Below, in pieces: positions 493 through 30,195 of a stretch of 64,000 bases of DNA (position 1 is the first letter of the stretch; every line of letters begins with the position of its first letter). A program made the position numbers and the translations under genes. The DNA is from Clostridia bacterium (GTDB lineage Bacteria > Bacillota > Clostridia > Monoglobales > Monoglobaceae): positions 1-64,000 of the forward strand of contig JAFQSM010000080.1 in assembly GCA_017409575.1 (NCBI GenBank), given 5' to 3'. The notes under the pieces were generated by a model. It had not been told where the DNA came from. It searched no databases and saw only the letters and a list, made by a program, of their open reading frames with translations.

Positions 493-696
493 ATATTTGA
501 CATCAACGTGGGAGGCGATAACAATGGTTTAGTTATTTTCAAAGAGGTACGGCCTTGCGAATGTGCTACTTTTGTTGTGTGCTTCTGAGAAATCAGAAAA
601 TAAAAAAGTAAATAAAAGTTTAGTACAGCGTGTGGATAGCCTCTTTGTGTAGAGAGGTAGGATTACATGCTTTTTTATAATTTAGGAGGAAAATTT
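493..696 (+). other. Untranslated leader, no gene seen
   Basis: About 200 bases between a good promoter and the ATG at 697. A ribosome-binding-like GGGAGG near 511 precedes an ATG followed two codons later by a stop, and an ATG at 560 opens only 16 codons. Neither looks like a real gene. The AT-rich composition matches the accessory genes that follow. Confidence 0.4.
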
Positions 697-1407
697 ATGA
701 AGAAATTTTTATCAGTTGTATTATGTATATCATTATTAATATGTTCGAGCATTCTGGTATATGCTGACGAATTTTCATATAACTATGGAATTTCTCCAAA
801 ACTTATTGAAAGAGAGCAGAACTTACTTAGCGAGATAGAAAGTAACCTTGATGAAATTCATGCACAAATTGCAGAGTATCAGCAAAATACTATTCAACCA
901 CGAGGTGTTCAATATGGAGGTTTCCAGTATTTGGATGGCGATATATTGGTAACAAAGAGCACAATATTATGGGGTCTTACTGGTCATGCTGGAATTCTCG
1001 TAGGAGACAAGGTCTTAGAAATAACGCCAACATATAATAACGGAGTACCAGCAGCAATTCCGATGGCTACATGGTTTTCAAGATATCCAGAAACCATGGT
1101 AGTTAGATACAATGGGGAAAGAGATATTCCTGTTGATGCAGCATGGTATGGTCATACTTTCTACGTAAATGGCGCCGGTGCGGATAATGAATACTCTCTT
1201 GTTAGCTCTCTAACTTCACTTGATAAAGACTATTGTTCATCATTGGTTTGGAAGTGTTATCATTATGGAGCCAATTTTGATTATGAGGTGCTTGATGGTG
1301 GAACATTGGAATGGACAATTCCTGTGACAATTTTACCATATGATTTTATTATGGATGGATATTATCAACATAATAATTTTTCCATTGTTCATAGTGTCAA
1401 TTGGTGA
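697..1407 (+). CDS. Secreted YiiX/permuted NlpC-P60-like cysteine hydrolase
   Basis: This 236-residue protein starts at the ATG behind TAGGAGGAAAATTT, 30 bases after an upstream in-frame start that has no ribosome site. Residues 1-24 form a signal peptide ending in VYADE. After a short helical stretch, the body carries GDILV, then GHAGILVGD (a candidate catalytic His), then DYCSSLVWKCY (a candidate nucleophile Cys). His before Cys is the order of the circularly permuted papain-like YiiX/YebB group, which act on amide or ester bonds, often in envelope peptides or lipids. The substrate is unknown. It is followed by a small membrane protein after five bases, probably co-transcribed. Composition is AT-rich relative to the core genes, and it sits directly behind a tRNA cluster. 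Confidence 0.7.
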   Translation: MKKFLSVVLCISLLICSSILVYADEFSYNYGISPKLIEREQNLLSEIESNLDEIHAQIAEYQQNTIQPRGVQYGGFQYLDGDILVTKSTILWGLTGHAGILVGDKVLEITPTYNNGVPAAIPMATWFSRYPETMVVRYNGERDIPVDAAWYGHTFYVNGAGADNEYSLVSSLTSLDKDYCSSLVWKCYHYGANFDYEVLDGGTLEWTIPVTILPYDFIMDGYYQHNNFSIVHSVNW

Positions 1408-1778: not shown

Positions 1779-1877
1779 TATTTCAAAATTCGTCTAAGTA
1801 AGCATAGAAAGAAAATTAAGTCCAAAGTATTTCTTTCAAAGTGAAAATTAGTGGCATCCAAATCATTCGTTTTTTCA
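1779..1877. other. Intergenic stretch leading into the hairpin array
   Basis: No gene or clear terminator is seen. It contains GGCATCCAAATCATTCG (1853-1869), which recurs with small changes at 2300-2315 in the linker between the second and third hairpin units. It is therefore probably the degraded left linker of the array. Confidence 0.5.
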
Positions 1878-2044
1878 GTTATATTTGCCTTCGGCAAGTT
1901 ATATTGCTACGCAGTTATATTCGACTTTTCCGAGTGGTATTGTGCTTCGCACAGTTAAAGGCAAATATAATATCACTGAAACCGAAGGTTTTAATATCAC
2001 TTTTGCTTTGCAAAAATATAACTCCAACAGAGTTGGAATATCAC
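1878..2044. repeat. Hairpin-array unit 1 (GTTATAT/ATATCAC version)
   Basis: Short hairpins with TTC or TAC loops, such as TTGCC-TTC-GGCAA at 1885-1897, TGC-TAC-GCA at 1905-1913 and TGTGC-TTC-GCACA at 1941-1953, are separated by the heptamer GTTATAT (1878, 1898, 1914; GTGGTAT at 1934). In the right half the spacers are the inverted form, ATATCAC or ATATAAC (around 1970, 1994, 2016 and 2038). GGCAAATATAA at 1960-1970 is the reverse complement of 1879-1889. The unit ends in ATATCACTAAAAA. Reading frames crossing it are fortuitous. Confidence 0.75.
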
Positions 2045-2081
2045 TAAAAATACTTGCATCCATTTTGTACGCGAAAGCCAG

Positions 2082-2112
2082 AAAAAGACTATTCTTCGGA
2101 ATAGTCTTTTTT
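2082..2112. terminator. Terminator-like hairpin before array unit 2
   Basis: A perfect stem AAAAGACTATTC/GAATAGTCTTTT with a short TTCG-type loop is flanked by A and T runs, so it could terminate in either direction. It is placed immediately before hairpin unit 2, in the same relative position as the hairpin at 2327-2356 before unit 3, so it appears to be part of the repeated element. Confidence 0.7.
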
Positions 2113-2114
2113 CA

Positions 2115-2289
2115 ACGAAATAAATCCTGCGGATTTGTGAAATGCCCTACGGGCGTGAAATACACCTGCGGTGTGTGAAATATTCTCTACGCGAATGTGG
2201 ATTTATTTCATTTCACAGAAAACTTTAGTTTCCTATTTCACAATTTACGAAGTAAATTATTTCATATCGAGCAAAGCGAGATATTTCAC
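2115..2289. repeat. Hairpin-array unit 2 (GTGAAAT/ATTTCAC version)
   Basis: Left half: ACGAAAT (2115), GTGAAAT (2137, 2155, 2175) separating AAATCC-TGC-GGATTT, GCCC-TAC-GGGC and ACACC-TGC-GGTGT hairpins. Right half: ATTTCAC (2210, 2235, 2283) and ATTTCAT (2259) separating AATTTACGAAGTAAATT and ATCGAGCAAAGCGAGAT. The layout matches unit 1, but both the left spacer and its right-hand complement have changed. It ends in ATTTCACTAAAAA. Confidence 0.8.
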
Positions 2290-2326
2290 TAAAAAAGTGT
2301 CATCTAAATCATTCGGCTCTTTCAAG

Positions 2327-2356
2327 AAAAAAGCACTTCTTTTGAAGTGCTTTTTT
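2327..2356. terminator. Terminator-like hairpin before array unit 3
   Basis: AAAAAAGCACTTC pairs with GAAGTGCTTTTTT around a TTTT loop, flanked by A and T runs. Its sequence differs from the hairpin at 2082-2112 while its position relative to the following unit is the same, so the shape is kept and the sequence is not. Confidence 0.7.
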
Positions 2357-2358
2357 CA

Positions 2359-2533
2359 ATGAAATTTGCCTGCAGCAAGTGAAATACACTGCGTTTATGA
2401 AATATTGCTTCGCAATATGAAATATGCCTTACGGCATATGAAAAGCAAATTTTATTTCACAGAAATTGAAAGCTTTCTATTTCACAATTTACGAAGTAAA
2501 TTATTTCATATCGAGCAATGCGAGATATCTCAT
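2359..2533. repeat. Hairpin-array unit 3
   Basis: The same design as unit 2: ATGAAAT or GTGAAAT spacers on the left around TTGCCTGCAGCAA, ATTGC-TTC-GCAAT and ATGCC-TTAC-GGCAT, and ATTTCAC, ATTTCAC, ATTTCAT, ATCTCAT on the right around AATTTACGAAGTAAATT and ATCGAGCAATGCGAGAT. The right half (about 2455-2535) is nearly identical to that of unit 2. Unit starts are spaced 237 and 244 bases apart, so this is a tandem array of about 240-base repeats. Confidence 0.8.
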
Positions 2534-30035: not shown

Positions 30036-30070
30036 AACAAATCTATACTCAAAGCATATCAGCCATAAGT

Positions 30071-30180
30071 ATTCTTCTTCCATCCGGACTTTACCGTCGG
30101 TTTTGGAATTTCACCAAATCAACCAGTTTTCTGGCTCGCGGACTTTACCGCCGGTCAGGAATTTCACCCTGCCCCAAAGA
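30071..30180 (-). promoter_or_regulatory. FMN riboswitch (RFN element)
   Basis: The minus strand shows the RFN consensus: GGGGCAGGGTGAAATTCC, ACCGGCGGTAAAGTCCGCGA, then TTTGGTGAAATTCC, ACCGACGGTAAAGTCCGGAT and GAAGAAGA. It folds into the six-helix aptamer that binds FMN and controls ribU through the terminator at 30005-30035. Confidence 0.96.
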
Positions 30181-30195
30181 ATATTTTGTATTCAA

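Follow-up and report, generated by a model that had tools for sequence, protein, structure and literature searches.

Integron attC sites are sequence-variable palindromes that are recognised by their structure and carry small strand-specific features; by this general description they resemble the element reported here, which differs in consisting of multi-hairpin rows in inverted pairs, ~170 nt in length and located behind tRNA genes. REPINs are doublets of REP sequences that go together with a RAYT transposase (Bertels and Rainey 2011, PMC3116915). With REPIN/BIME repeats the element shares an inverted pair of hairpin repeats that is extragenic, dispersed and sharply bounded, occurs in tandem clusters including the flanks and is predicted to fold as single-stranded DNA. 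It differs from them in having 3–4 hairpins per half, where a REPIN has one, a heptamer instead of the GTAG/CGTC tag, almost fully variable stems and no link to RAYT genes. A further described system is Gut-1 RNA (Rfam RF01706), which Weinberg et al. 2010 presented as a probable RNA (RNA 'Y'), reported from human gut DNA only (PMC2864571); among the papers covered by a full-text search, no other mentions the accession.

The window, i.e. the entire 64-kb stretch of DNA analysed here, belongs to a 1.78-Mb draft genome of 101 contigs and contains three units of ~170 bases at spacings of 237 and 244 bases, as the original prediction had stated and the unit starts confirm (Table 1). No named family had been recognised in them at that stage. 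Searches with the Rfam covariance model, however, placed the left halves of units 2 and 3 above the Gut-1 gathering score of 50 bits, i.e. within RF01706, with the same GUGAAAU spacers and hairpins. Unit 1 and the right halves of units 2 and 3 remained below this score, the latter with 37.5–40 bits on the minus strand. Since Gut-1 is also matched by the right halves, on the opposite strand, its model captures one half of a symmetric element. The left half of this element is Gut-1 RNA, which is most likely not an RNA gene in its own right. The two also differ in extent and range: the Rfam model describes an sRNA of 77 nt on a single strand, whereas the element is symmetric, ~170 nt long and uses more heptamer families, and Gut-1 was reported from the human gut only, whereas the named contigs with matches here often come from ruminants.

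Table 1 Features of the 64-kb window, with positions counted from its first letter
Feature	Position	Strand	Description	Basis
ORF upstream of the arrays	667–1407		Signal peptide; NlpC/P60-like	By eye
Motif M variant	1853–1877			
Unit 1	1878–2044	+	4 left hairpins (GTTATAT/GTGGTAT), centre GGCAAATATA, 3 right hairpins (ATATCAC)	Element parser (L318 826–992); weak Gut-1 match 1876–1945, 35.1 bits; inverted repeat I5, 1879–1891/1958–1970
Motif M, GCATC..GCCA variant, before hp0 of unit 2	2055–2081	+		Direct repeats D3
hp0 of unit 2	2082–2111	+	Terminator-like, AAAAAGACTATTC-TTCG-GAATAGTCTTTTT, CCAG before	Inverted repeat I6
Gut-1 match, unit 2 left half	2113–2186		73.9 bits, E 7.8e-15	Rfam covariance model
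Unit 2	2115–2289	+	Complete, 4 left + 3 right hairpins, heptamers GTGAAAT/ATTTCAC	Parser and Gut-1 matches
Unit 2 centre	2199–2209	+	GGATTTATTTC, complementary to unit start GAAATAAATCC, 2117–2127	Inverted repeat I7
Gut-1 match, unit 2	2205–2291	−	E 2.9e-6	Rfam covariance model
Motif M variant	2298–2325			
hp0 of unit 3	2326–2357	+	Terminator-like, GAAAAAAGCACTTC-TTTT-GAAGTGCTTTTTTC	Inverted repeat I2
Gut-1 match, unit 3 left half	2357–2428		57.7 bits, E 1e-10	Rfam covariance model
Unit 3	2359–2533	+	Complete, 4 left + 3 right hairpins, heptamers RTGAAAT/ATTTCAY	Parser and Gut-1 matches
Gut-1 match, unit 3	2449–2535	−	E 1.3e-5	Rfam covariance model
FMN riboswitch	30068–30185	−	120.2 bits	

In unit 2, a copy of the heptamer GTGAAAT stands before each of the four left hairpins (hp1 to hp4), the last of which runs into the centre; beyond the centre, ATTTCAC stands before each of the three right hairpins (hpR1 to hpR3) and once more after the last. 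The exceptions are the first heptamer, which reads ACGAAAT, and one right copy, which reads ATTTCAT. Unit 3 follows the same plan, and the right halves of the two units are 88% identical. Each is preceded by a perfect terminator hairpin flanked by A and T, and the full repeating block consists of terminator plus array. The claim that the right heptamer is the reverse complement of the left stands for units 2 and 3 and fails for unit 1, where GTTATAT and ATATCAC agree at 6 of 7 positions and are thus not exact reverse complements. Hairpin loops of the TTC, TAC or TGC type, as originally described, prevail in the left halves, those of the right halves being mostly their complements (GAA/GCA type). 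Open reading frames over the array are unconvincing, as had been noted before, and protein coding was rejected. A heptamer-blind detector, which counted spacer–hairpin arrays of at least two hairpins, found exactly three in the window, all within 1970–2443; in five dinucleotide-matched random sequences of equal length it found 0, 0, 0, 1 and 1, and these random arrays were in every case shorter and weaker. The Gut-1 matches at 2113–2186 and 2357–2428 are independent confirmation that the units are significant. A detector built on chains of hairpins alone, with no heptamer, lacked power. The three hairpin-array units seen initially are real.

Across genomes, a parser with symmetric scoring, in which G.T counted as a mismatch and detection was tuned to about ten heptamer families, collected 172 non-redundant elements, mostly from Clostridia; an earlier version of it found no elements in Markov-shuffled copies of the same loci. 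Since the parser demands a right heptamer resembling the reverse complement of the left, and so builds in heptamer complementarity, the left–right relation was tested separately. Among 69 adjacent arrays found without the complementarity rule, 54 pairs were inverted matches and 4 were direct ones (z = 9.3 for the left–right match versus re-paired arrays), in agreement with the initial observation that left and right spacers change together. The heptamers fall into about nine families (including GTGAAAT, GTGATAT, GTTATAT, GCGATAT, TCGATAT, GTGAAGT, GCTAAAT, ATGAATT and ATGATAT), three of which occur within one tandem cluster of a single genome (G005), where at least three tandem elements carry GTGAAAT, GCTAAAT and ATGAATT side by side (L356, 500–1420). 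Because elements inherit their heptamer family from common ancestors, independent changes number closer to ten than to 172.

Of the 134 elements whose centre sequence gave their orientation, 87 have precisely four heptamers on each side; the stems between the heptamers are almost fully variable in sequence yet base-paired. In 80% of 111 elements, with 27 different arms among them, the centre is complementary to the 5' arm of the same element's first hairpin (mean longest match 5.37, versus 3.90 with shuffled centres, sd 0.09); the same test detected no complementarity to the centre for hairpins 2 and 3. The original prediction had taken the covariation as an argument for a paired structure or for copying by repeated inversion. 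Pairing of left with right spacers is not supported, as the match between nested heptamer partners within elements is not above that of permuted partners (p = 0.48; p = 0.69 for the innermost pair). A nested ladder (S0–R3, S1–R2, S2–R1, S3–R0), attractive for its four-to-four numbers, was rejected on the same values.

TNC loops in the 5' half together with GNA loops in the 3' half characterise 153 of the 172 elements (score ≥2), with 3 reversed. This rule reads alike on both strands, so that the right half is of the left half's kind turned round, loops included. As both the loops and the spacers are reverse-complemented there, inversion or copying of a hairpin row, already raised in the original prediction as copying by repeated inversion, is a better fit than one long RNA helix. 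On the 3'-half strand, the loops of 586 distinct hairpins included 206 GNA and 136 GNNA, closed by C-G in 307 of 342 cases. DNA mini-hairpins of unusual stability follow a GNA/GNNA loop rule (PMC4686876). In the GNNA loops, a purine occupied the third position in 71 of 136, i.e. without purine preference, which fits this DNA rule better than the RNA GNRA rule. Among stem mismatches on the same strand, G.A outnumbered C.T by 124 to 4, and still by 31 to 4 after related stems were collapsed into families. For G.T versus A.C, the count of 51 to 23 weakened to 32 versus 22 (p = 0.22) as a result of the same collapsing. Tested over a continuous single strand, G.T and A.C stood at 42 and 32 (p = 0.30), and a single continuous RNA over both halves is not favoured. 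As RNA, unit 2 with its terminator gives a strong fold (z = −5.5). With RNA energy parameters the opposite (TNC) strand is the more stable one by 2.7–3.8 kcal/mol per half, in our opinion largely through an extra U.G pair that the ends of the heptamer can form; with DNA energy parameters the strands differ little. We consider folded single-stranded DNA more likely than RNA, short of proof.

For 192 pairs of similar 4+4 elements at different loci, homology stops sharply at the element ends. On the left it ends mostly 6–14 nt before the first heptamer, inside the terminator T-run, or alternatively 34–41 nt before it, ahead of the terminator hairpin; on the right it ends mostly between −2 and +10 nt from the last heptamer. 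Ends of this kind are typical of a unit that has been moved or copied to new sites, and gene conversion between copies could contribute to the boundary pattern. Within the genus, the orthologous tmRNA site carries a complete element in G007, a truncated one in G000 and the left half only in G005, while six genomes (G001, G002, G003, G004, G006 and G008) have the tmRNA without the element and with a different terminator. The window's own site, beside the gene for dipicolinate synthase subunit B (DpaB), lacks the element in seven same-genus genomes. Neither a transposition event nor an empty site clean at base level was seen, and neither a target duplication nor a mobilising enzyme was found.

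The position of the elements is strongly one-sided. A tRNA or tmRNA gene lies ahead of 49 of the 134 oriented elements, 45 of them 29–47 nt from the gene end, and in 49 of 49 cases it is the gene's 3' end that faces the element's left end; these genes represent 15 amino acids plus tmRNA. When all elements were counted, the left side had 66 tRNA 3' ends and no 5' ends, and the right side three tRNA 5' ends. In 94 of 107 elements the first heptamer lies next to a hairpin with a stem of at least 8 bp, mostly terminator-like. This hairpin (hp0) starts at CCA or within 4 nt of it in 45 of the 49 tRNA cases and in 19 of the 45 remaining ones; the background is 5%. Some of the non-tRNA cases appear to follow broken tRNA 3' ends and some follow motif M (GCATCTAAACCATTCGGCTCTTCCA), variants of which precede all three units in the window. 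Motif M adjoins elements in other genomes, and stands before terminator hairpins whether or not a hairpin array follows (also in L548–L550). It consists of a 5-bp stem, a loop and a 3' CCA, and resembles a degenerate tRNA 3' end. Ten of the 134 elements lie inside an ORF of at least 90 aa. Where a right neighbour was called (113 cases), its transcription runs towards the element in 48.

The covariance-model search, a check proposed with the original prediction, revealed related units in many other Clostridia; the description of a structured, covarying, non-coding feature is supported. The window's genome has 11 Gut-1 matches on six contigs. Matches occur in 27 of 100 relatives and, within a sample of 391 genomes from the class, in 64, spread over 45 of 222 genera, the genomes being draft MAGs with one per species; 14 named control genomes had none above the cut-off. 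Most of the named contigs that contain elements belong to Clostridia MAGs from guts, those of ruminants among them. One near-complete element lies in a record classed as viral (L240); a plasmid search gave no match, and a phage search a single 32-base match only. A scan with the GTGAAAT pattern returned many matches outside Clostridia, many of which are probably chance or other repeats. The parser also found repeated hairpin rows of the GTTATAT type in an Akkermansia MAG (L042), which may be another repeat.

We lean towards regarding the units as members of a dispersed family of palindromic DNA repeats that are non-autonomous and act in the manner of REPIN/BIME. The observations behind this reading are the 4+4 plan, the concerted heptamers, the variable but paired stems, the sharp ends, presence and absence at orthologous sites and the one-way association with tRNA genes and terminators. 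Each half would be recognised as folded single-stranded DNA, on the strand with the GNA/GNNA loops, and a host recombinase or transposase would read hairpin plus heptamer. Given such a reader, a new heptamer would appear in all eight places at once, and a single protein reading the heptamer would account for concerted change of all heptamers without covariation between individual partners. Copying or movement would bring the element to positions that follow CCA ends and terminators, where it would do little harm and may add a transcription barrier. It is best read as mobile-looking DNA and not as a trans-acting RNA gene. We suggest only tentatively, and with considerable reservation, that it exemplifies a class of mobile DNA in gut Clostridia, the ends of which are single-stranded mini-hairpin rows read by structure and a co-changing heptamer, and which lands one-way at the CCA end of tRNA genes or at a motif like a tRNA 3' end. 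On the REPIN/BIME-like reading, an Rfam RNA family unexplained since 2010 would be re-classed as half of a mobile-looking DNA element. The palindromic repeat is common among uncultured gut Clostridia and lies outside the RAYT/REP tags known so far. It also offers a testable case of structure-based DNA recognition, in which several heptamer families of the same fold within one genome predict matching recognition proteins, and the one-way preference for tRNA ends makes the landing rule directly testable.

The fixed orientation behind tRNA genes and terminators, an inverted symmetry that offers the same structure to transcripts from either side, and the small number of copies in coding sequence would suit a bidirectional transcription barrier or RNA 3'-end protector, made of terminator and hairpin rows and selected behind tRNA and other genes. 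We find this doubtful as the explanation of the element, given that copies are gained and lost at orthologous sites, that termination gives heptamer conservation no role and that the right neighbour points towards the element in fewer than half of the cases. The fixed orientation behind tRNA genes could nonetheless reflect a transcription role, which may well coexist with mobility. It is unlikely that the unit is a structured non-coding RNA in the Rfam sense, transcribed whole from the + strand and joining hairpins and left–right spacer helices in one fold. An Rfam family with covarying stems, the listing as RNA 'Y' (PMC2864571) and the RNA fold of unit 2 with its terminator speak for it; against it, a mostly terminator-like hairpin stands directly ahead of the element, nested spacer pairing is unsupported, loop and mismatch types switch strand between the halves, with little G.T excess on a single strand, and orthologous tmRNA and DpaB sites exist without the element.

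Array structure, concerted heptamers and tandem units might also arise neutrally, by replication slippage and template switching at quasi-palindromes, with neither mobility nor function. The recurrence of the 4+4 plan and of the centre rule (80% of elements), and near-identical subfamilies at different loci and in different genera, make this improbable. Least credible to us is a SINE-like retroelement copied from tRNA read-through transcripts and landing with tRNA 3' fragments. The start of hp0 at or near CCA behind tRNA genes, and the CCA that remains at that place in other cases well above background, speak for it, but the reverse transcriptase family PF00078 had no match in the drafts of G000 or its eight same-genus relatives (G000–G008), several of which carry elements, and a reverse transcriptase was rejected as the driver.

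Turning to enzymes that might move a DNA repeat of the REPIN/BIME kind, RAYT/Y1 genes do not track the elements (9 of 19 genomes with Gut-1 matches versus 12 of 31 without), and six Y1 genes inspected had no such hairpin arrays within 650 nt. A RAYT/Y1 transposase was rejected as the driver in view of this lack of association and of the different repeat, GGGGACGGTTCT, that flanks the Y1 genes. An autonomous element between paired copies (L059, L436) was likewise set aside, the intervening ORFs showing no obvious recombinase by eye. By the features that define REP/REPIN sequences, the element is an inverted extragenic hairpin doublet with defined ends; its spacers are GTGAAAT-type heptamers, with no GTAG or CGTC tag beside the hairpin, and neither the carrier counts nor the six inspected genes point to a RAYT (Y1) gene flanked by the repeat. 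As REP tags and the RAYT link are both missing, we do not file the element as REP. In the window's genome and its relatives, RAYT-like Y1 genes of 250–262 aa are flanked by the REP-like GGGGACGGTTCT/AGAACCGTCCCC, as at about 7492–7827 of L388 and about 4096–4431 of L389, and also in L390–L392.
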